Program-made: the position numbers and the translations under genes
From: Sclerodactyla briareus
Taxonomy: Eukaryota > Echinodermata > Holothuroidea > Dendrochirotida > Sclerodactylidae
Reading direction: 5' to 3'
Assembly: GCA_026419785.1 (NCBI GenBank)
Contig: JAODTK010005588.1
Span: forward strand, 206,145 to 270,144
Length of the DNA: 64,000 nucleotides
In this document: positions 3,538 to 61,221 of the stretch, piece after piece
Position numbering within the stretch: the stretch's first letter is position 1
Layout of the letters: each line of letters starts with the position of its first letter
The notes under the pieces: generated by a model
What the model was told of the DNA's origin: nothing
The model's database searches: none
Seen by the model: only the letters and a program-made list of their open reading frames with translations

Positions 3538-4321
3538 ACATGGCGATGGTAGAATAACCGCGTGTAACCTAACTCCGCGGGGTCACGCAACTGTTCAATT
3601 GTTCCATACCAGAGTTACCAGAAAAAACACCATTTTGTGAACAACAGGAAAAAACAGTTGACGTTCCATCGTAACAAGGAAATGTATTAGGATTGAGCAG
3701 CCTTACGATGATTTAGAAATGTTGAAAACACGAATCTCTTCAATTTCAGAAAATACGAAATGTCGATAATTTGTGTGCTACGTCAATGTAATACAGCATT
3801 AGCAAATGAACAAATCTTTCTTCACGCAAGCCAACTGACGCAGTAGACAACGAATGTACGGATGCTTACACACACTTGTGTTTGCATTTTCATACCAGAC
3901 ATCGCATACCAGTCACAGAAGCCACAGCGTTTATATTGCGCTTCCGTACCGTACGCACTTTCTTCTGCTCAGCATATACGTTGCACACACGGATTTACAA
4001 AATTGATCGCTCCGTCCAGACACAGTGAAGCAAATAACATGTAACGTTTGGATTATTTATGTAGCTACGACTTACATTGTCTATTCAGCGATAAAATTTG
4101 AAAAAAGAAGAGAATCCTTCTAAGAGAAAGATTAAATGTGCTTAGCACCGCGAAGTTAGGTTAATCCATCATACGTGAAATGGGAGGGACACAGAAACGT
4201 AACAATTGAATAGCAGGACATGTTTTTAACAAGCAAGAAAACAAGAAACGGGAAGAAAGTAGCAGAAGAAGAGAGAATAAGAAACAAAGAAAACACCCTA
4301 AGGAAATTATAATCATACAAC
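3538..4321. other. Intergenic stretch, no gene seen
   Basis: No protein similarity recognised. Open frames are at most about 60 codons. The stretch is purine-rich near 4220-4300 but has no definable repeat unit. Confidence 0.55.
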
Positions 4322-4415
4322 TTGTCAATGCCTCATCAGAGGATCATCTGTGTCTGAATAATGATAATAATAATAATAATAATAATAATAATATAATAAT
4401 AATAATAATAATATA

Positions 4416-4448: not shown

Positions 4449-5562
4449 GTTCAGTTTTATTCGAGCACAACTATCAGGGTTTAATACATAGCTAAATTAG
4501 AGCAGGTTCATGCCTTAAGGATCAATACGAAAACTGGAAATACATGCACATTTTGATTATGATCGTCACGCCTCCCGACAAGGATGTCAAATAATGGTTT
4601 ATGGAGCTACTTCAATGCTCGTGCACTTTACCGATGGGCAAAACGGAAAACTATCCTCCCGGATCCCCCGTGGAGATGCGTAACTGTCCATAAACTATAC
4701 AGCCTCTGTAGCGCTGAAACATCCGTCATTTTAGTGGGCCTACACGACTTGTATCAGGCTTGAGCAGGAGGGAGACATAGACCACCCGGTACGCTGGAAT
4801 GTAATTCATCTACCCCTCTCCCACCGTATACATAGACTATGTATTCCTAAGGTATCCCCCACGTCACCTGTATCGAGAGTCGGTGATTGCAGCCATAACG
4901 AATGTCACAGTAAATCAGCAGGTGTTCTGTGACCTAAAAATGAGCCTTTCCATCAATTCAGCTTGCAAGATACCACCTACTTAACACTGGATGTACAACT
5001 CAGGCATCGAAATTGACGTAGAAAGTCTGCGTCCTGCGTAGACAGGCCATGCGTTTTGACGCATATCCGGAAGATGCGGACGATAAATTGACGGGACAGA
5101 GACGTGTCGGAAAATTTTCTTTGTATGTAGTCCTAGTAACGTTCTTTTCCGATTTTTTTTTTCCAGAATAATGTTCATATGGTTTGATTTTCGATACCTT
5201 GCCGAAGCAATGCAGCCGTGTCGGTGTATATCTGTTTGTGTGTATTTGGTGTGAGCATCTGGCGTTTGTCTCATAAACGCGATAACTCTACCCAACCTAT
5301 ATGACTTGGAATGTGTTTACCCCGATAAATGAAAGACGCAACAAATTCTCGTGAACAAAAATCCAGAATGCTTGATCTGATCCAGTGGAAATTGGTGTTT
5401 AGCTCTCTTATGAGAGTTCAGAGTCCTATTGATATCTTTTTTTAAACATGAAATCAATTTGAAAAATGGAAATTTTATAATTACAGCTCGTAATCACGAT
5501 GACTCAACTCCACCTGAAAAAATATATCTTGGTTTGTGTAATGTGTAAATAGTGAATATCAA
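4449..5562. other. Intergenic stretch, no gene seen
   Basis: The longest open frame (minus strand, 104 codons, 4981-5295) has no recognisable domain, and its codon use does not differ from the surroundings. Nothing else supportable. Confidence 0.55.
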
Positions 5563-5613
5563 CTTTTCAATGCATCATCAGAGGATCATCTGTGTCTGAA
5601 TAATAATAATAAT
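5563..5613 (+). repeat. Retroposon 3' tail with short TAA run, copy 2
   Basis: Matches the copy at 4322-4375 with about three differences and ends in a much shorter TAA run. Same orientation, about 1.2 kb away, so this is either two insertions of one family or a local duplication. Confidence 0.55.
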
Positions 5614-8600
5614 AACACGCTTACGCTAGCAACTTAGACCTGCCTGAGAACCCCGGAGACTATATAAAACTGATGCATATTAGTTATGTTGTCAAAACCG
5701 GATGCTTCATGTTCAAGAAATTCGAGGTGAATTTATTCGATTTTAACCAACCCGAGATATGAATTAATCCAGTGGCAATGTAACGTTGGATTGTGCCCGG
5801 GTGCCCCGGACCCCGGACATTTTCCTTTCACTGTCATGAGAGAAGTGGATCGGGTCCGAGTTGCTGGGGACACATTCCACTGGAAAACAAGAAGGTATCC
5901 GCTATATATTGTGCGTGCATAATTTTATATTCGTACTGCATTCTGTGTAGTTCAAGATGCGCACTTCTAGTGCTGTTATATCTTTAGGTGTGGTATCCAG
6001 ACTGGAACAGGATAAAATGTACGTACGAACTATTACGTATTTGTACGTGTGTACTAGAAAAATAACGTGAATTCACAGGTGGAAAAAGCTAAGGTCAGTC
6101 CCAACATGGGCGTTATCATCACCTTCGATGCGAGTTGGACTATTCATTTTCGCGCCATTTTCACATACTGAAGATTCCAGCAGCACACGTGAACCTGCAA
6201 CTTGATGATAATTGAAAGTCGAACCGAGGTAAAGGTTGAACTCAGGCTATCGAACTTAGCACAGGCTTTCCGTCGTTGATTCCCATGTGAGTGACCCACA
6301 ACCAGTGAGGCCAATGCTACGTTTCCCTACTAAAAACTCGGTCTTCATTTCATATAAACACAGTGAGAGCACCCTGACCAAACTTGGTCCTTTCGAAACC
6401 GGTAACGTTGGAGCATACATTTTTGTTCGTAAAACTTACTAGGCCTGAAGAGATTCCTGAACTTGTTTTGCATCCTTGTAATTGTCCTTCTTCAGCAGAA
6501 ACTTTACAATATTGAACTTGATGTTATTTGTGGTTGTAACAAAGGCTCACTTCGAAGTTTTGGTGTGTATGCGGCACAAACTGTACAGGATCAGTAGCGG
6601 GTCAGTGATTATGGTCATGTTATCAGCACTGTTGTGGTTGAGGGGTGAGTTGGGGTTGAGCTGCTCAATGAATATTTTCTTCGTTAGTAAAAGGCCTAGC
6701 CTATTTCAATTGATTTTGACAACTTGGTCGAAGTCGAATTGAAAGCCCCAATACCCCCATTCATCCCTAACGTTAGTGCCAGTAAAACGTTTCAGAGCTC
6801 GAAACTACAGTAGTAGCAAGGCCCTTCCTCAATTTGAGCAGATCAACTCCTGAACAACATCAGCAGACAAAATGCAATTTGTTTAGAGCGTTACTTGACC
6901 CACTAGAGCCGCTGTTGTGTCTGTCAAGAATGATATGAAATTCAACCGCTGCGATTTGAATTAAAGACACTCCTTGGGTAGCCTGTACTACACATGTATA
7001 TATCGTATGTAGGCCAATGTATGTGCAATAATGTCACATGAATATTCACTCGCAGTCTGCATGTAGCATGTAGCCCAGGTTATCTATTGCCAGCCATAGG
7101 ATGCAACTTAAACGGGATGCCTTGCATCGCGTCACATTTTGGAGAAACTATGTTAACATGCAATGGTTCTGCCATTAAACATTAACCATGAAACTCATTA
7201 TTCAACCGACGAAAGTACAGTCTCCGGACACCCGTACACCACGTGCTGGGCCTTACATAGGTGTGGTTCTCCGGCAAGTTTGTATGACCGAAATGATTGA
7301 CCCTGTTCGCTCTTGCCTGAGCCTTGTTCAAGGGGGGACATATATAGTGGTCAGTTTGTTGTGTCTGTCAGTCTGTGTCTGTCTATATCTCCTGTACTGA
7401 GAAAACCCAAGTGTTGAAATTTCGTATAAGTTGAACGACATACATAACGTATCGGTATTAGTGAGCGAGAAATTTGATTTACATGACCTGTGTTTTTTTT
7501 TGTGTGTTTTTTTTTTTTTTCATGCAGCCACTGTACGATTCATAAATTGCATATTAATTGGGAATTACCCGAAAGCCTATATGCAGGATATTCTATAATC
7601 GGTTAATGCATTCCATTGACAACAGCGAACAATATGCGTTCCTGGTATTTAATATGCTCATTATGCAAAGTTTCCAATTCTATCTCATTTAAATGAAACT
7701 TGGTAGATGTGAGCCTTCTTGGGTTCTGATCGTGCAGGTAAGATGTTTTGGCAGTCACCTTGTAAGCTTGACTAGTTATACTGGTTGTGCTATTGATTGT
7801 GGTGTGCCTGTCTATCCTTTTGGGCTCACAAATGATCCTTCTTTGATAGATGTTGGGGCATAGTGAACTGTTGTGTGAAAAATACATTTACTTAGCAAAT
7901 ATCGCTAGATTTTCTTGGAAGTAAAAATTATAGGATGTGGGGCCCTTTGCATATTTTGAACGTGGTACATATGAAGTATTCTAGAACTTGGGTCAGTGGT
8001 CATTTTAGTGGTCGAAATATTTCACCTGTTGATCTATTGAACATACGGAGAATAGAGCTATCGAGAAAAAAATGTTTGGTTGCCTTTCATATTATCACTT
8101 AATCAACAAAATCATCATCGTGTGATAGTGTTAGTTGGGGCGAGCAAATTACCATCAGCCTAAGTAACTCCTCACTGCGTAGTCAAGTACGGATCAGCGC
8201 CACCCACACTTCCGTGCGGACTGTCCCCGGTTTAGGCCAGTGTACGTACCATAACTGGGAAAATGAGGAAATGTAGTGGTAAGTTTCAGGACAGCTTGGT
8301 TTGCTCATGGCCAAAGTTTACGGAGCCTGTCCTTGGTATGCACTAAATATGTGGATGGCATACATGATCTACATGTCGTTAGCTGGAACATTGCCAAATG
8401 AATTAGGTCCAAGCAAACAAATATCTCCTGGCTGATTTGCCAATCTCAAGGGCGCAACCACTCGTTCTGGGTCTGGGAGGTCTGACACACGATGTGGGAA
8501 ATCGACAGCACAGCAAAGATCAAATGTTTTTATTGTGTGGGTAGGCTCCACCTTAACATGTGGTGGGGCGCTACTTCTTCCAACCTTTGCCTATTCTAGG

Positions 8601-12910: not shown

Positions 12911-14690
12911 AACCTAATAGTAGGATTATGCGTAATTCCCCACATGTTAGCTCATCAGGCCTATTAACAGCATTTGTCTTTAAATTCCTCAATACCCATA
13001 GCTGCCACAAGTTGATGACACAGACCAAGTGATCCAACCTAACATATAGTTAGTGTTTAGTGAATAAGGGTCAGGAAGGACCAAATCCTCTAACGAACCC
13101 CGGAGCCACAACATCCCAGGAAAGAAAAATGAACAAACCACTAAATATTCGCCCGTGATTCCTGAAAAATGAATCAAGACTGTTCTTGAACGCATTTACA
13201 CTCTTAGAGAGAACACCATTTTCAGGAAGACACTTCCACTCATTGATCAGTTTCTCTGCGAGAAGAAATATTTACGAATGTCCATTCTGCAGCGTTTGCC
13301 ACGAGGCTTGAGACGATGGCCTTATTTGCATTAACATTGGAAAATTCAAGAAGTAGTGGAAGGACGGGCCATCGAGTCCATGGACAATTTTGAAAACCTG
13401 AATCAAGTCACCCCGAATTCGCCTCAGCTCCATGTTAATTAGACCGAGACGCCTTAATCTTTCCTCGTAGGATAAATTTTTCAGACAGTCATCATTCTAG
13501 TTGCCCTACGCTGAACGTTTTCAATACCTGGCTGTCTTTTGAAAAGTAGGGATTCCACACTTGTACAGAATATTCCAGGTGCGGTCTCACCAGTTGCTTA
13601 AACAGCCTTACACAATATCATTATCAAGGAAACGAAGTGACGTCTGATCAAGGCAATATCCATTACCTATTCTAGCAGCTTCGGCACACTGCTTGGAAGG
13701 TTTCAAAGAAGAATCAAAACAACCCCAAGATCTTTTTCTGAAATCACCTCCTGAATATTTGGCCATTTAACTTGTAGGAAGCGTTGCGATTGTGAAAACC
13801 AACATGCTAACTTTGCAATGTCGACCATTGAAAAACATCTGCCAGTCGGAAGACCATTTGGAAATTATATCCAGATCCCTATGAACAATTTCCGATCACC
13901 ATTCGAACCGACCTCCCGATACAACTTGGTATCGTCTGCGAACTTCTTAACCCTGGAAAGAACAGAACCTTCAAGATGGTCAATATACGCCAGAAAGAGT
14001 AACGGCCCGAGAACCGATCCCTGGGGAAACACCACTAGTGACCTTTTCCCAGAAGACGATCGCCCATTAATGACATCTCGTTGTTTCCCTATTATGAAGC
14101 CACTCACGAATCCACTTAAGGACATTCCCCTCATGCCAAAGCTCTCCAACTTGAGCAAGAGACGCTCGTGAGGAACCTTGTCACAAGCTTTCTGAAAGTC
14201 CAGGAAAATTATAATCAACAGCATGGCCGTTGTCAAACAGAAACATGTAAAATCTGCCATAAATTCCAAGAGATTAGTCAAACACGAAAGATTTTCCCTA
14301 AACCCAGGATGAGAATCCCTAATCAGACTATGCTCATTGAAATAATCAACCATTATGATCCCGAATCATTGATTCCATTCCTTGCAGACAACACTAGTAA
14401 GACTGACTGGCCTGTAATTACAAGGAAGAGACCGTTACCTTTCCTGAAAAATGAGGGAAACATTGATCTCCCCAATATCCGCGAAACATACCTTCTTGCA
14501 GAGTCTCATTGAAAATAATAGCTAATGGAACAGACAACTCGTCGGCAAAGGATTTTAGTAAGAAAGGATGAATTCCGTCAGGACCAGGAGCTTTATCACT
14601 TTTGAGTTCTGCGTTTTCCTTTACTAAAACAGGCGAGCCACTAGTTACCAAGCTAGCGGAGAAACCCGACAACCCGACAACATATGTAGA
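12891..14690 (-). pseudogene. CR1-like LINE (family A), reverse transcriptase to 3' end, decayed
   Basis: Reading the minus strand from about 14690 down, one sees the start of the reverse transcriptase domain (SDKAPGPDGIHPFLLKSF near 14600), then NYRPVSLTSVV near 14390, the motif with the first catalytic aspartate (FLDFQKACDKVPHERLLLK near 14190), PQGSVLGPLLFLAYIDHLE near 14020, and FADDTKLYREV near 13930. Downstream comes the C-terminal region with LSYEERLRRLGLINMELRR (about 13440) and the WKCLPENGV segment (about 13230). These are the ordered motifs of CR1/Jockey-superfamily LINE polymerases, which copy their own RNA at a nicked target. The endonuclease domain is missing, as in 5'-truncated insertions. 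At least three frameshifts and several stops break it; the longest intact piece is 162 codons (13865-14353). The 3' end is marked by 7-bp tail repeats at 12891-12910. Confidence 0.93.
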
Positions 14691-15558: not shown

Positions 15559-15563
15559 TCTGA

Positions 15564-16157
15564 CAGCCCGGGAGATTCTCCTGTTTGGGAGAATTCTAAG
15601 ATTCTCCTGTTCGGGAGAATTGTCATGCTAATACAGATATGAATAACATTGTCTGCGGATCATTAGATACAAACAGTCGTTCCCAGTTAATGTCTCCCTG
15701 CGCTGTTCGAATAATTTAACATTAGGTCGATTATTACAGTTACATGTGCTTCTATAGCATAGCACGATGCAACTTCAGTCATGGCATTCTTGATATCAAA
15801 CACACAGTTTATATAACAACGAGATGCTGTTCGGAACGACTGTGACAAATCTAATAAAAAATTACAACCGGAATATTCTATTCCGAATTCGATATCTCGA
15901 CAATCTACATTGACACGTATCAATCCAAACCAAGCATTTTTGTAGTTGGGACAACAAGGATCCTGAATATGACAATAAATTAAGTCTCGGACTGGACGAA
16001 TTTTCAAGAGGGATAAAAAACAATGTCTCCTATATATCTCCATATGGTTGAAAGTTGCATTGTGGGAAATATACAATATGGCAGCCTCATGAATTATTCA
16101 AATTCTCCCAAACAGGAGACAATTTTATAATCCCGAATAGGAGAATCTCCCGGACTG
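15564..16157. mobile_element. 594-bp inverted-repeat element with 5-bp target duplication
   Basis: The left terminus CAGCCCGGGAGATTCTCCTG and the reverse complement of the right terminus CAGTCCGGGAGATTCTCCTA match at 18 of 20 bases. The element is flanked on both sides by TCTGA (15559-15563 and 16158-16162), a perfect 5-bp direct repeat. Each end carries more than one copy of a small hairpin unit, ATTCTCC-TGTTYG-GGAGAAT (left: about 15574-15620; right: about 16101-16148), so the terminal region is built from repeated hairpins over roughly 60 bp. A 129-codon open frame fills much of the interior on the minus strand (15687-16076) but has no recognised domain and may be chance. A 5-bp duplication excludes the usual hAT (8), Mariner (TA) and piggyBac (TTAA) families, so the superfamily is left open. 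Confidence 0.85.
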
Positions 16158-16162
16158 TCTGA

Positions 16163-19461: not shown

Positions 19462-19860
19462 TGTTTTTAGCTGCGAGCAAGCAGCTCTACAAGTCATATG
19501 TCTCTCCGTTCGTTCGTTAGTTCGTTTGTTAGTTCGTTCGTTTGTACGATCTCTTCTCCACATTCACTCATAATTTCTAAACGGTTCGTTTCGATCAGGT
19601 TGAAACTTGGTGGGTGGATGGAGCATGCCACTGGCTAGGCTGTGTCACATTTTTGTTTGCATAGTATAATTAGATTTTAAATAACTCTAATAAGTCTACC
19701 CACCACAGCCAGTCCCATCGGGCTCTCTGTTAGAGAGAATTGTTTACATCGATGACCTAGAAATGTGGGTCTTCATTTCGCAATGAACTGCATTGAAAAT
19801 GATGTATCTGTCAACACACCACGCTCTAGTTTCTGTTTGCTGTGAAAACGGGTAACGCAG
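19462..19860 (+). repeat. Dispersed repeat family R, copy 1
   Basis: Begins with TTTTAGCTGCGAGCAAGCAG and then CTCTACAAGTCATATGTCTC, followed by (TTCG/TTAG)n. Then comes a conserved block (GGTTGAAACTTGGTGGGTGG, GGCTGTGTCACATTTTTGTTT) and a final part (GACCTAGAAATGT, TCTGTCAACACACCACGCTC) shared with the inverted copy at 41 kb. The first bases form a hairpin, AGCTGC-GAGCAA-GCAGCT. No coding frame is conserved between copies, so this is a non-coding mobile or satellite-like family of unknown class. Confidence 0.8.
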
Positions 19861-21728: not shown

Positions 21729-22425
21729 CGGGTAAGCAGCTCATCATGTTTCTTCGTCCGCCCGGGTGGATGAAGCATGTCAGTGACTGGGCTGTGTTAC
21801 GTTTTTGTTTGAATAGTGTGATAAGATTTTGATTGAATGCAATTAATTGCCCCATCAGTCTCCCTACAGCAATTCCCTACAGTAATTCCCTTGAGCTCAC
21901 TGTGAGGGAGGTTTGTTAATTCTTCCCTATCTCTGCAAAAGGCAGCCGATATAAGGATACTGTTTATTTATCACTATCCCACTGAGGGTGGAATTAATAG
22001 AAGACATAGGGAGGGGGGGGGGGTGTGTTGGAAAGACCTGCTATCACTTTTTTTATGTAGGTGCTGGCTGGATTTGGCCCTGTGTGGAACTACGTCCATG
22101 ATGGAATGAATTGAGGGGCTCACAGGCTGTTCCAGTGTTGTTCCAGTTGTTCACTGCTACAGTGTATTTCCACGGTTCACTGGCTAACCCTACAGGCCTA
22201 TAAATTAGTTGTGCTGGGTACATATAAGGTTGTGCTGGGCCCCTATAGCATATTTGGCCAATTTAGTCAACATGTTCAGTCATTCCAAGGTGATGTCAGT
22301 AAGGGTCAGTTTAATGTGAACAAACAATAAATGTGAAATGGTGGAGAACATGCAGTGTATTCGCCAGAGGAATTTTGCCGTCCGCAGTTACCAAGACGTT
22401 TCGAACTTGCGCTTGTTTTACAAAC
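21729..22425 (+). repeat. Dispersed repeat family R, copy 2
   Basis: Starts within GGTAAGCAGCTCATCATG, lacks most of the TTCG repeat, and carries the same middle block (GGTGGATGAAGCATGTCAGT, GGCTGTGTTACGTTTTTGTTT). It ends with a block shared with copy 3 (AATGTGAACAAACAATAAATG, TGCAGTGTATTCGCCA, GAACTTGCGCTTGTT). The copies diverge after that point, which sets the 3' end near 22425. A G run of 11 lies at 22013-22023. Confidence 0.75.
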
Positions 22426-26250: not shown

Positions 26251-26933
26251 ATTTTGACACCCTCTATGTAACTGCAACGAATGAGAACTTCAAAGGAACA
26301 TCATCTAGGTCTAATCCGTGTTGTATCGGAGACTGGCAAATCCGCCACCAACACCAGAGGCATTCGACCCGACAATGACATAGCGACACTGGGTATCGGA
26401 ATGGCCACACCGTTACCAGAAAGGTCCAACACCAACAGCCATCAACCCAACACTCTAAAACCATGTTTAGAATAACAATATTTTGCATCACTTCTGAAAA
26501 ATGATCAAATGCTGAACACATAGCTGAATTGCTAAAAACGTAAAGTGTGTTATATTGCAAAAGTTGATTGCATATTCAACCAGATTCATACACATAACAT
26601 TTAGCACTTCTGCATTATCCATCATATCTGCAATTAAGTTGAACGACCTACCACTTCTAACAGTATAGCATGCAAATCCAGAGCCTAGGCTAACTCTGAA
26701 TTACTGCCTATTAGCTCTGAATCGTGCCCCTACCCCGGTCCAAGCCCGGTCTGTGCTTCACCGAAAGGCCTATTTATCTTCGCTAGACCCGGGCATCGCC
26801 TTCCTTCCTATGGAACAGTTGTAAAAGATGTAGATGATATCGCATTTTCTAATGTGATGCTTCTCATTTCAAAATTTTGAAGTTGTGCTCGCTTTTTAGT
26901 TAAGTTAATTTGCTTTTCATCTCTTCTCAATTT

Positions 26934-27826
26934 CAGCTGCGGAGAAGCAGCTCTACAAGTCATCATGTCTCACCTTCCGTTCGTTCGTTCGTTCGTTCGT
27001 TCGTTCGTTCGTCCGTTTTCGTTCGTCCCTTCTGTTCGTCACGTTCATTCATAACTTCTAAACCTGACATGCGATCAGGTTGAAATCTTGGGGGTGGAAT
27101 GAACTTGCTACTTGGCTTATCCTTAGCTTACAATATGTTCGCATAGTGTTATTAGATTTTAATTAAAGCCAATACTTACCCCATATTCCACCTTTATTTT
27201 GAGCTCTCCGCTGCCAGACAAGTTTGTTTACTTTCCTCCATCCTCTGCTGAGCAGTGGTTTCCTTACATCAGTACATGTACCAGTTCTGCAGAATAGTTG
27301 ACAATAAAACCTATTGTCCAGGGGCAGATGATTTGTCTTTCATCGCATCTCGCACTAGTTTACATTAGAACCCCTCCCTGCCTCCACAGGGGATTTGTTT
27401 ACATTACATCTCGGTTTTTTTGGTCCAATTCCTCTGTGGTGACTAGAAGGTGGCTTCCTCCCTCCCCCCCCCCCACCTAAACATGGCTTTTGATGGTACT
27501 TGTGGAGTGGTTCAACCCCTAATTAACCCCTTAACAAATGAGTGTCAACAAGACAATGTTAGTATCATTTCTCTGTTGGGAAGTGTGTTTCACTGTTCAA
27601 TGCCACCTGCTTTAGTGCTGGACACTGATAGCAAAGATTAGGCTAATGTGGTAGAACTGTTCCAAGTCATTCCATGGTTATGACAGATGTCAGTAGAGGT
27701 GAGTTGAATGTGAACAAACGATAAATGGTGAGATGGCGAAAAAATGCAATGTATTCGCCACGAGATTTTTGCTGTCCGCACTACCAATACTTTCCGACTT
27801 GCACTTGTTCACTGTCCAGACGCATC
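26934..27826 (+). repeat. Dispersed repeat family R, copy 3 (longest)
   Basis: Starts TTTCAGCTGCGGAGAAGCAG then CTCTACAAGTCATCATG, followed by about eight TTCG units (26977-27010). It then has the conserved middle (CAGGTTGAAATCTTGGGGGT) and a long 3' part shared with copy 2 (AATGTGAACAAACGATAAATG, GCAATGTATTCGCCACGAG). At about 890 bp it is the most complete copy seen. It has C and G runs (27464-27474) and no conserved coding frame. Confidence 0.8.
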
Positions 27827-30035
27827 ACATTCGTTTTTGTTACTGATATACTTATATATTTTTTCTGCACTACTGTATCCATAATGACTGAGCATATTGT
27901 GTGTCACAAGCTAGGGTAACACTGCAGTTGTACATATCTAACTGTCGGCATATTATGCCAGCCCACATCTTATATGACACACTCACGGCGGACTATCCTG
28001 TCCACTTTTCCCCGTCCAGTATAGGACCCAGTGGGTTGGGGCCGCTCACAGGGTCCCCCTGTAGTCATGGTATGGTATGGGATGTACCCCAGAGAGTTGG
28101 GGGAAGGGCCAGGCCGATCGCTTGCCTGGAGTTGCTGCTGGGTAGTTGCGGCTAGTTTTCGTTCCATGATGTGCTCCCATGAGTGAGTGTGTGAATGAGT
28201 TGGAGTGAAAAATATAGTGGGTATGTGAGTCTGCGCCTGCAAACTCGTGTCCACGGGTCAATTGCCACAACGGGCTCCTACAACATTGTTTTCTATAAAG
28301 ACATTACACATGCTTAAAGTTTTGTTTTCACTAATAGTCCATAAATTGTGCACCATACACACCACAAGCTCATGACTCTCCAGGTTATTCTATACTAGTT
28401 CCATCCCTGGTACCCTTCAACCCTCATCTGAATGAGCCCCTGGCACTTACCTCGAAGTAAGTCTGCTAACCCTACTTACCACTCGTACCTTACACTAGTA
28501 ACCCTCACACAACATTTTCATTTCAACATATTTGATATTTGCACAATCCGGTTCCGTCTTACTATTGGCGGTGTCTTAGCTCATAGTTCTGTGTAGCCTA
28601 TTCCTCCGGCCACACTCCGGTCTCCATGGCTAATGTACGACGTAATTAATATCTAGCTTAATCTGGTCCAGAGAAACCCGACTGGCAGTTACCTTAGGCT
28701 CGGGTAATAGACCGTTTTTAAACATTATCTATGTATCATTCCAGGTCAATGCAAGACCCCTCCAACCATTTAGTCAATGTGGTACCGTCGATGGGTAAGA
28801 ATTCGAAATGTCCAAACCAGTTGCTTGTTTATTATCGGGCGCAACAGGTACCAAAACACTACCAAGACAGATTTCTCGTCTCACAGAAGTGTCACCACTG
28901 CAGAAACAGCTTCCTCCATACAAATCTTCACCAACCCTAGAAAAATGCTCAGATATCTTCAAGTCTAATACCTTCACGCAATAATATTGACCGATTTGCC
29001 GAAACAGCCTATTGTATTTTTCCGAAACAATTATCGGAACCTTTTGAGAATTGCTGTCGCATACCCTAGGGTAAAACCACAATAACTGGAATTAAATACC
29101 CATGAATGACAAGCGGAATTTTGGACCTCTATTAGCTGAAAGATGGTTAACATCAAATTTATTCGAAACCCTACGCCAACTAATAAGTCAATCTATACGA
29201 ATTTTAGACATAGTCTAAATACTTGCCGTACCTATGCTAAAAAAATTCTATCGGAGTCTCATTGATGAAATATCTCCCAGGGAAGGGTATGTGATAAGCA
29301 TAAATAGATTCTCAATAAAACCAGACTACGATATGAAGTAAGTTTTATGTCGACGCTCCGCAGACGACGTTACTGTTCAAATGCAAACAGATTCCAGATA
29401 GTTAACAGTTCTTTCTCTTCATTGGCAGAAGATGACACAGCGAATCCCGATGGTCACCGGGCCCCATATAGAATGCATACCTCATAGACGTTGTAATATT
29501 TGATATGTTTCACACTCCTGAAGAAGAAGTGCGACTATTATTACTAAAATTTAACAGTGGAAACATTCTGGATATGAGAAAATATCTAACGATATTCTAA
29601 AATACCAATAGTCAGATTGCGACCGTTGCCCCGTAATAATCTTCCTTCTCCAATTGTTCCAATCTCTCCATGGATAGTGATCCAAAGCTCTTTTTCAAAT
29701 TATAGACCTCAGGCCGTCAATGTTTTTTTTAACAACAAACGTTTGAAGTGAATCTAGGGATTAATAAGAAAAAAGCAAAATGATCCGCAAAAAGCGTAGA
29801 AATCACTGGGGCTCGAATACATGCCCCGGAAGGGACCAGAAGACAGGGGGGGAAAGTGAAATCGATGTGTGAGAATCAGTGGACTTACAATCAGTTATGC
29901 GCGCCTATCTCTGATAGCACAAGCCTATGCATATCAGAGGATTCTAGTCAATGAATTGGCATGAGCTGAGCATCTACAATGCTGACATGCGTGCGAAGCA
30001 TCTCTACATGCGAATGATATACCGCAGTACATGAC
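27827..30035. other. Intergenic stretch, no gene seen
   Basis: Open frames of up to 102 codons on both strands around 27900-28270 and 28730-29080 have no recognisable domains. Nothing else supportable. Confidence 0.5.
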
Positions 30036-30040
30036 GACTG

Positions 30041-30880
30041 ATGCCACATACATCATACATTGATCTCTCGAAAGCCTTCAATACTATTGATCACATTATT
30101 CTATTGAATAAGTTATACTATGGCGTTCGTGACTGGTCGCACAATTGGTTCGCAAGCTACTTGAAAAATCGTCAGCAATATGTCCAATATGCAAATACTT
30201 CATCTGTCCATGTTTTGTGTATCCACAGGTCTAGTTTGGACCACGTGTTTATCTATACATTGTTTATATATTCTCACGAGAAAATCCAACTTTATTCTTT
30301 TGCGGATGACACTACAGTATTTTATCCAGAAAAGAATCTAGTAGATCTAGTACATACAGATGCAAATGCCACCATTGCCTTTTGATCATATCTGTGAATG
30401 GCTCAGATCGAATAGATTGACTCTAATTCATTGCAGACAAACGTATGATTTTTTTATATCAGAATAAAGGATACTTTTGATATTTTGAACGGTAACCAAT
30501 CACTGCATCCCCCAGTTTAACGTTTCTGGGATTACAAATCGATGAAAATTTAAAATTGGCCGCATATACTGCATGTACACCCTTAACCAAAAAATATCTA
30601 GAATAAAGGTATAATAAATCATTTAAAATGCCATACTCACCAGGGATCTCTCCTTACTTTATATAACACACTAGTCTACCGCATTTGACCTCAATCTCGA
30701 ACTTCCTGGATAGAATCACTAGGGTTATTTATGTATACGTTCCATAGTGGCCTTTCCATTGCGTTCGAAAAAAAGTATTGTGTAATTCTTCGTTCCCTAA
30801 TTTTTAATACACGAATAGACCTACGTATTCCCAGAACGGTCCCGGATCAGAATCAAATCCGGAGAGCTGGTGTTTAACTC
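30041..30880 (+). pseudogene. LINE reverse transcriptase fragment (family C), decayed
   Basis: The plus strand shows a reverse transcriptase core: YIDLSKAFNTIDHIILLNK (30056 on, holding the first catalytic Asp), then WFASYLKNRQQYVQY, a PQG-type motif pushed into another frame at about 30220-30255, and KIQLYSFADDTTVFYPEK (about 30280-30335), whose ADD is the second catalytic pair. Downstream, in changing frames, come CEWLRSNRLTL, GIINHLK and LLTLYNTLVY, which belong to the thumb and following region. These match the Jockey/CR1/L2 superfamily but differ from family A in this window. It begins and ends abruptly, lacks the endonuclease, and has several frameshifts and stops. Confidence 0.92.
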
Positions 30881-34487: not shown

Positions 34488-35870
34488 AGTGTCTTTTTCT
34501 GCGCTAGAAAAAGACATGTTCCTAACATCATGTTCAAAATATCAGGAACACATTTGATGAGTTCCCGACTTTGGTCCAGGAACGCAAGCCGGACGTTGTT
34601 GGAATTACAGAGTCTTGGCTGAACAGTGAAATGGCTAGCCGAAGCACACGCATGACAGGTTATGTTGCTCATAGGCAAGATCGGAATGATACTCTCATGT
34701 GGCCTTGAGGGTGGAGTCTTGTATGTGAGGTCTGACTGGAATAGCATCGAGAAGACAGATTGGTGTTAAATTCCCTACAACGCTTCAGGTATCCCCAGAT
34801 CATCAACAGACGGTGTTGTATATAGCTTTCCCAACGGCACTGAAAGTAGTAACTCGCTTCTTTCCGACTTGTCATTCGAAGTTTCCGGTAAGAGTATAAT
34901 TATCATGGGCGATTTCAAATATTCAGATATTACGTGGTCTGAGCTAGTAGTGGCAGTCATTGATCTTTCTTAATGTCTCCCAAGAGTGTTTCCTTCCGCA
35001 GCATGTTCATTTATCTCCAAGAGAGCTCCAAGAAAGATTCTAGATCTAGTTTTGAGTAGTGTTCCAGGTTCCGTGGATAATGCAAATAGCTTAGTAAGAG
35101 TAATATTAAAACAGAGGTTGAGTTCGTTCCTTGTTTCTCGAGGGCCGATTTCGATGGCATGTCTGGTTTTCTGTAATGTAGATTGGTCTAAATTTTCAGA
35201 AGGTTCGAATGCTGTTGACTCGTGGAAGGGCTCCGTTGGATGAGTTAACGAGATAATGAAAGTTTACTTTTTTGTCGCACTAAGAACGAAGGCCTTGTCG
35301 GATGACTGAGGAGGTTTCTTCTGGCCATCCAACGTGAGAGACACCTTTGGCGACTACATCGTTCCACTTGTGCCTTGTCTGATTGAGAATCGTCGAAGTT
35401 CAGCAAAGCTATTCCCACGTTAGATTCTCTGGTGCTGAGCTCAATTTTGAGAGGCAGATTGCCTCTTATATGAAGAATCATCCTCGTTTTTTCTCCTATG
35501 TTATGCTATGACTTCATAACTTCGATAGGGCTGAGATCGTGTGAGTGATTCATGTTGGGGTTTTTTTTTTTCTTTTTTAATGTCATGGATACTTAGAGGG
35601 CCCTCTTCCTTTAAATTTCGTGAGGTAATCCAGGTTTGTTATGTAACCACCAATAGCCTCAAGCTTCGTGGCAAGCGCTGTAGTGTAGATGGGAATCACA
35701 AGCAGTTCTCTCGCAGAGAGGCATTAGTGAGTGGGATAACCTTCCTGAAGATGCGGTTAATTAAGGACCAGTCTTGATTTGTTTCTCAAGACTGGTGGGC
35801 GAAATCGTTAGGCATATGGGTTCTTCTCTTTTGGGATGTTGTGGCTCCAGGGCCTTTCATGGGCGGTGGT
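34488..35870 (+). pseudogene. CR1-like LINE (family A), endonuclease plus C-terminus, polymerase core deleted
   Basis: From 34488 the plus strand carries the apurinic-type endonuclease domain: NIRNTFDEFPTLVQERKPDV, GITESWLNSEM (about 34590-34630, catalytic Glu), GDFKYSDITW (about 34905-34930) and ILDLVLSSVPGSVDNA (35040-35080). A linker with RERHLWRR-like residues (about 35325-35345) and GRLPL (about 35455) follows. The sequence then jumps at about 35500-35600 straight into the C-terminal region, SQRGISEWDNLPEDAVN (about 35710-35760), and CCGSRAFHG, which aligns at DNA level with the 3' part of the copy at 13.1 kb. The whole reverse transcriptase core is absent, so this copy has an internal deletion. 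Stops and frameshifts are frequent. Confidence 0.87.
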
Positions 35871-39754: not shown

Positions 39755-40880
39755 CTGTTACATGTATTCCTGACCCAAATAATAGATTTCAGCACCCTGC
39801 GGACAACACTAGTAAAACTCACTGCATGTAGTTACAAGGAATAGACCGGTTGCCTTTGGAGAACATTTTGCTCTCCTCCAATCATCCGAAACAACACCTT
39901 CCTGCGAGGTTTAATTGAAAATATTAGCTATGGAACAGACAACTGTTCGGCAAACAAAAGATTTCGATTAGAGGGGGTGAACTCCTCCGATCAGGAGCAT
40001 TGACACTTTTTAGTTTCTGCAGTTTCTCCTTCATCAGACAAGGCGAGCACACTATATACCAATACCATCATGAAGCACACCAACCACGAGGTTGCTGGAA
40101 TTATCCAAGTTCTCCTGGGTGAATACCGACGGAAAATACTTATTGAGAAAGCTCCCGGCCGTCGGCTTAATGATACGAATGAGGAACTAATAATGGACCA
40201 ATGATATCCTGACTTTCGGCTTCCCCTAACATAAGAGCAAAAACGCACGAGGATTATTCTTTAGTAGACGCAATCTGCCTCTCGAAAACGAGCTTAGCAC
40301 CAAAAAACTGATGTTGGTCTAGCTTTTGCTGAACTTTGAACTGATCTAACTTTGACAAGGAATCAGTAGAAAAACGATGTGTCGCCAAATAGGTCTCTTA
40401 CGTTTAATGATCAGGGAAACCTCCCTTTTCATCCAACAAGTGCTTCTGTTCTCAGTGCCACGCATTTTCCAAGGAACGTAAACTTGAGCATTCCAACAAT
40501 TTAAGTTAGTCTACAATACTCGGGAACCCCAAAATGCCATCCAAATCGGCCCTCGAGAAACAAAGAACGAGTTCGACGCACTGTGGAATATTGGCAGAAC
40601 AAGACACATCAAAATCTATAATATTGTGATCACTGCACCAAGCTCACTTAGACTCTCTACATTATCCACGGAACCTGGATCACTACTGAGAACTAAATCT
40701 AAAATAGTATGCTTTCTGGCTCCACGCGGCACTCGGAGCGGAACAAAAAAGCAAAACGGTGTATCCGTAGATACTGACTCCTCACTTTATACACTAGTGG
40801 TGGGAAGGCTAATAAGGTGACTGCCAAATTCCAGCACTCCACTACCTAGATAAACTGTGACTTCCTGTGCTCTAAGGAAG
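39755..40880 (-). pseudogene. CR1-like LINE (family A), endonuclease end to start of polymerase, decayed
   Basis: Read on the minus strand from 40730 down: ILDLVLSSDPGSVDNVESL (about 40700-40645), LCFSRADLDGILGF (about 40565-40525), a connecting region with FERQIAS (about 40285-40265), PDRRSSPPLIEIF (about 39995-39960, equivalent to the PDGIHP motif of the 14.6-kb copy) and TSVVRRVLKSIIWV (about 39812-39770). The DNA around 39796-39930 aligns well with 14388-14530 of the first family A copy, and 40500-40720 aligns in inverted sense with 35040-35200 of the second. The piece stops before the catalytic motifs. Multiple frameshifts; non-functional. Confidence 0.87.
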
Positions 40881-41139: not shown

Positions 41140-41685
41140 CCAATGCCCAATTTCATTGCAACAGAATCTATAGCGTGATGTGTTGACAGACAAATCACCT
41201 TCATTCTGGAATAAACCCACTATTAGACACAACATTTCTAGGTCACCAATGTCTTAGAAACTGGGCCGAGATGTGTTGACAGATGAACGACTTCTGTAAT
41301 GGTCTAGTCTGTTGTTGTGCTACGCCGAGATAAGAGAGTTAGTAATGTAAACAAACCCCGGCAGAGGAAGGGTATAATGAAACAAAACCTCCTCTCACAG
41401 AGCTCAATCGAACTCAAAGGGCGACTTATTGGGGTAATTAATTGGATTTAATCTGAATTATTCACACTATGCAGCCAAAAATGTACCTCAGCCTATCCAG
41501 TGGCATGTTTCATCCACCCACCAAGTTTCCACCTGATTGCATGTACGGTTCAGAGGTTAACGAATGAAACGTGAAGACAGAACGGACGAACGAACGAACT
41601 AACTAACGAACGAACGAACGAACGAACGGTCGGACGGAGAGACATGGTGACTTGTAGAGCTGCTTACTCGCAGCTAAAAATCTAG
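41140..41685 (-). repeat. Dispersed repeat family R, copy 4 (inverted)
   Basis: Minus-strand start at about 41685 (TTTTTAGCTGCGAGTAAGCAG then CTCTACAAGTCACCATGTC), then TTCG repeats (41582-41628 on the plus strand as CGAA units), the middle block with CAGGTGGAAACTTGGTGGGT, and a 3' part (GGTGACCTAGAAATGT, TCTGTCAACACATCACGC) shared with copy 1. The end near 41140 is set by where similarity to copy 1 fades. Confidence 0.78.
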
Positions 41686-60996: not shown

Positions 60997-61037
60997 TATA
61001 TATATTATACATCTATATATAAGATATATATAAATAT

Positions 61038-61071
<34 letters not shown>

Positions 61072-61078
61072 TATTATA

Positions 61079-61121
<43 letters not shown>

Positions 61122-61221
61122 ATATATAGATATATATATAATTATATAGATATATATATATGATATATATATAATTATATATAATATAATTAATCATACA
61201 TATAGATAATATATATATATA
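60997..61221. repeat. (TA)n microsatellite, ~225 bp
   Basis: Imperfect TA dinucleotide tract broken by GATATA and ATTATA variants. The 99-codon minus frame through it encodes only Ile/Tyr-rich low-complexity sequence. It lies about 200 bp beyond the 3' end of the Penelope-like fragment. Confidence 0.97.

Follow-up and report, generated by a model that had tools for sequence, protein, structure and literature searches.

A probable MITE-like DNA transposon with palindrome arrays at its ends in the holothurian Sclerodactyla briareus

Introduction

A 64,000-nucleotide stretch of Sclerodactyla briareus DNA from contig JAODTK010005588.1 (hereafter the window, the whole of the DNA that was analysed) holds a 594-bp segment with CAG...CTG ends, which lies between two copies of TCTGA. 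Is this segment a mobile element, does it encode a protein, and to which superfamily of DNA transposons might it be related? An earlier note on the locus had taken it for an element with terminal inverted repeats that had duplicated 5 bp of its target, a reading that our analysis supports, from one copy.

Results

Inverted ends flanked by an exact 5-bp repeat

The segment occupies positions 15564-16157 of the window, as delimited by an inverted-repeat search, BLASTN and a structural scan; it starts CAGCCCGGGAGATTCTCC and finishes GGAGAATCTCCCGGACTG. Sequence and scan place the two TCTGA copies on the plus strand at 15559-15563 on the left and 16158-16162 on the right. At exactly 5 bp, the direct repeat has a single register, as the bases that adjoin it are not the same at the two copies and leave no room for sliding in either direction; its length is read from one copy of the element only. 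A recount of the outer 20 bases of the two ends returned 18 matches, the same figure that had been claimed before. By BLASTN, the inverted repeat covers 65 columns, including the duplication, at 81.5% identity (E 6.5e-11; 7 mismatches, 2 gap openings). Counted within the element alone, the two arms are imperfect and about 57 bp long, the left one at 15564-15621 on the plus strand and the right one at 16101-16157 on the minus strand.

We scanned the window for inverted ends that match at 17 or more of 20 bases around a 12-base exact seed, with at most 1500 bp between seeds and a direct repeat of 5-10 bp. The scan returned this element and seven rows that all fall within one (TA)n tract at 61 kb. 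TCTGA itself is identical to its reverse complement at all but one of its 5 bases; being nearly palindromic, it also reads as an extension of the inverted repeat, with arms from 15559, and is therefore somewhat weaker evidence of duplication. This property favours a quite improbable alternative, namely that the segment is no transposon and that its inverted repeat arose by chance or through a duplication, with TCTGA merely continuing the near-palindromic arms: the inverted repeat seems to run through the direct repeat, and a single copy is known. Against it stand the exact, unslidable 5-bp repeat, for which the chance at the element's spacing is 0.0014 even when taken alone (200,000 random placements), and the whole structure, which the same scan found in none of 40 dinucleotide-shuffled windows. 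The coordinates, the unslidable repeat and the shuffled windows thus bear out the earlier description of a 594-bp element with a 5-bp TCTGA duplication and hairpin-built ends.

Ends built from palindromic units

Both arms, located by BLASTN and folding, contain palindromic units, and neither these units nor the element as a whole are assigned a strand. From the positions of the half-sites, the outermost palindrome, GGAGA-T-TCTCC, lies at 15571-15581, and its right half is common to the first left hairpin unit. This unit (15575-15594) is 20 bp long, with the stem ATTCTCC/GGAGAAT and 6 bases between the two strands of the stem; a second 20-bp unit with the same stem lies 26 bp further in, at 15601-15620. 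On the right, the inner unit (16102-16121) is slightly decayed and nearly intact, and the outer unit (16127-16146) is decayed, with 3 columns missing and substitutions relative to the left unit in the alignment of the arms. GGAGA/TCTCC half-sites number 9 in the 115 bp of the arms versus 3 in the 479-bp interior. Folded as a single DNA strand, the left arm reached -11.7 kcal/mol against a mean of -5.1, with 1 of 300 base-composition shuffles as low; the right arm reached -7.4 kcal/mol against a mean of -3.6 (7 of 300). The whole element folds with a z score of -7.5 relative to 20 shuffles, a value that mostly restates its inverted ends. Its interior is A+T-rich, with a GC fraction of 0.36 versus 0.44 and 0.41 in the flanks.

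Also within the element, at 16074-16082 on the minus strand, is the nonamer GCCATATTG, one base off the ProtoRAG TR5 block GCCATCTTG given in an excerpt of PMC8289069. Its distance of 75 bp from the tip exceeds the ProtoRAG spacing, and such a 9-mer occurs once in the element and 16 times in the window; we attribute it to chance and reject it as a TR5-like block.

A minus-strand open frame, probably non-coding

The interior contains an open frame on the minus strand at 15687-16097, which the earlier note had given as 129 codons. The frame exists; that count, though, starts at a TTG, which is improbable as an animal start codon, and the frame measures 118 codons from the first ATG and 136 from stop to stop, with no sign of coding. 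Its period-3 signal is 1.1, a value equalled or exceeded in 179 of 465 window tiles, compared with 2.44 for a reverse-transcriptase fragment in the same window. A Pfam search with this longest frame gave nothing significant (a single match at E 0.27 and 11.6 bits, versus a cut-off of 27), and PDB gave no match at E 1. Of the 25 other frames within or overlapping the element, the eight that were scanned had no Pfam match either, so that no transposase match was found among the 9 frames scanned in all. A protein search of IMG/VR with a pattern from the frame's peptide matched 3 stretches, 0 of which were confirmed. We regard the frame as probably non-coding and reject the coding reading. That it is a small gene for a protein of about 118-136 residues is very improbable: the frame is long relative to shuffles of the element (10 of 2000 are as long between stops and 11 of 2000 from ATG), but 2 of 107 equally sized tiles of the window reach its length, the window holds 25 frames of at least 110 codons between stops, and the periodicity and the Pfam and PDB results speak against it.

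Searches for further copies

By BLASTN, no second copy was found in the 64-kb window; apart from the match of the element to itself and of its ends to each other, all matches were short, with E values of 1.3 or above. Four exact patterns searched in IMG/VR gave 0, 0, 1 (L001) and 2 (L002 and L003) matches, which were compared as fetched pieces of longer contigs (3133, 2024 and 1266 bases), and all three were judged to be chance. L001 has 66% GC and no second end; L002 and L003, at E up to 1, matched over 16-22 bases at the searched motif, with one further 11-base match in L002. One exact pattern had 0 matches in prokaryote genomes, as expected for an animal sequence. Neither collection is one in which an animal element would be expected, and diverged copies would escape a search by exact patterns. 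In a literature text search with five end strings, only the short string CAGTCCGGGAGA appeared among the matches listed; the titles are mouse or medical, and the matches are probably primers. The element is thus known from one copy, whereas MITEs usually occur repeatedly in a genome, as several copies of uniform size; a new family cannot be founded on a single copy.

Other repeats in the window

The window has a CpG observed/expected ratio of 0.83, and searches of its full length found 0 Rfam matches at gathering scores and 0 tRNAs. Two RVT_1 fragments were observed as LINE-like remnants, one at 13865-14365 on the minus strand (E 4.3e-14, above the cut-off) and one at 30035-30385 on the plus strand (E 1.8e-05, below the cut-off at 25 versus 29.6 bits). 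The stretch upstream of the former, 14360-14651, recurs at 39774-40062 with 73% identity. A dispersed repeat of about 230-260 bp, which has a (CGTT)n tract in its interior and begins with the conserved AGCTGCG..AAGCAGCTCTACAAGTCA, occurs at 19464-19692, 26931-27183 and 41430-41680 (minus strand), with part of it at 21764-21865; its copies are 74-78% alike. An inverted repeat pair of several hundred bases, 35037-35503 and 40227-40705, is broken by indels into three BLASTN pieces that are 74-89% alike, and a two-copy repeat, 22232-22417 and 27615-27809, is 75% alike over 198 columns. A 56-bp direct repeat (4318-4373 and 5560-5615) is 95% alike and continues, at its first copy, into an (AAT)n tract, and an impure (TA)n tract of 225 bp lies at 60997-61221.

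Discussion

A non-autonomous cut-and-paste element

We consider it highly likely that the element is a MITE-like, non-autonomous cut-and-paste DNA transposon, because its inverted ends match, an exact direct repeat of 5 bp flanks it, its palindrome arrays cluster at the ends and it has no recognisable protein. As expected of a non-autonomous terminal-inverted-repeat element, the one copy has inverted repeats at its ends and, next to them, a direct duplication of the target. Coding capacity was not detected: nothing significant emerged from Pfam for nine frames, and the longest had neither a PDB match nor a period-3 signal.

In the simplest account, a transposase encoded elsewhere in the genome would act on such an element in trans. 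This putative protein would bind the paired GGAGA/TCTCC half-sites in each end and bring the ends together, cut at CAG/CTG and insert the element into target DNA with a 5-bp stagger, and repair of the gaps would leave two TCTGA copies. The end palindromes are thus read as probable paired transposase binding sites, by analogy with Hermes, a hAT transposon whose subterminal repeats form a quasi-palindrome to which a pair of BED domains binds cooperatively (PMC10368747, in excerpt). The half-sites would act like the Hermes subterminal repeats, a likeness of design and not evidence of membership.

hAT5 as a tentative lead

The comparisons with published systems draw on excerpts of the papers cited. 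The earlier note had held that CAG...CTG ends together with a 5-bp duplication do not match the common animal superfamilies, a view weakened by two reports: hAT5 is a hAT group whose defining feature is a duplication of 5 bp and which shares a lineage with hAT families of animals (PMC12730594, citing Kapitonov and Jurka 2007), and Mar is a hAT family with CAG ends (PMC3517528). We take hAT5 as a possible, tentative lead for the superfamily and do not file the element as a member. It shares with hAT5 the 5-bp target duplication, here read from one copy, and with hAT more widely the CAG...CTG ends known from Mar. Repeated short sites near the ends are another hAT likeness, with 9 of 12 half-sites located in the arms here, in a motif that is not that of Hermes. 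hAT ends have a conserved G at the fifth base, whereas the fifth base is C in this element. Its inverted ends of about 57 bp are also longer than those stated for hAT, 5-27 or 10-25 bp (PMC3517528 among the sources), a length that is usual and not strictly defining. Furthermore, an autonomous partner in hAT5 would encode a hAT transposase with a BED finger and a C-terminal dimerisation domain; the scanned frames of the element gave no transposase match, and the searches found no relative by which to place it.

Among individual hAT elements, Hermes likewise has a short pair of quasi-palindromic subterminal sites near its left tip; its motif is AAGT/AAGC and its duplication 8 bp, in contrast to GGAGA/TCTCC and 5 bp here (PMC10368747). 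Mar, a Drosophila hAT MITE, resembles the element in its similar size (610 bp), its lack of coding capacity and its CAG ends, but has 11-bp inverted ends and 8-bp duplications (PMC3517528).

Other superfamilies

The next two assignments compete with the hAT5 lead only, and the first of them, a derivative of Transib/RAG-like or other CMC-type (CMCT) transposons with CA...TG ends and a 5-bp stagger, is unlikely. Transib ends in general start with CAC; the element lacks this start and has the 5-bp duplication, in its one copy. CA..TG ends occur in most CMCT lineages, with duplications of 2-5 bp (PMC12730594), and the RAG-like ProtoRAG makes 5-bp duplications and shares the CA...TG outermost bases (PMC8289069). 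Both ends of the element are CAG, however, whereas CAC is common to many RAG-like ends and is required in ProtoRAG, where recombination was lost whenever a base of the first CAC at the 5' end was substituted (PMC8289069). ProtoRAG duplications also lean towards G+C, in contrast to 2 of 5 bases in TCTGA, and palindrome arrays are absent from the published description considered (PMC8289069).

Equally confined to competing with hAT5 is the improbable descent from MuDR (Mutator-like) or from some other known superfamily in which 5-bp duplications occasionally arise. Long inverted ends, as seen here, are common in MuDR, and its usual duplication of 9 bp or so argues against it. MuDR, compared on duplication range alone, and its prokaryote relatives IS256 make duplications of 4-10 bp (PMC10045372). 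TDD-4 and TDD-5 of Dictyostelium make 5-bp duplications (PMC2836005); the element does not fit the end pattern of Ginger2/TDD, whose ends are TGTNR (PMC2836005) and those of the element CAG. A comparison with a coral MITE was set aside on account of its TTAA duplications (PMC2872659), and the portions of PMC3630058, PMC6004678 and PMC10045372 considered held no closer match.

Lastly, there is little likelihood that the element represents an undescribed superfamily of animal DNA transposons with 5-bp duplications and palindrome-array ends. No compared group fits it fully, given the CAC of RAG-like ends (PMC8289069), the TGTNR of Ginger/TDD (PMC2836005) and the usually shorter ends of hAT. Nevertheless, one copy without coding capacity is not enough to define a superfamily, and hAT5 fits the duplication length, in a comparison that excludes Repbase and Dfam. 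It is similarly a long shot that this is the founding copy of an undescribed animal lineage, whose transposase would read an alternating GGAGA/TCTCC array spaced about 26 bp (2.5 helical turns) apart, with several transposase dimers per end.

Significance

We thus return to the MITE-like element, tentatively compared with hAT5. It looks like a routine form of mobile DNA and by itself matters little: animal genomes commonly contain small non-autonomous elements like this one. If copies and an autonomous relative are found, the regular palindrome array at its ends would make it a natural test case for the use of paired subterminal sites.
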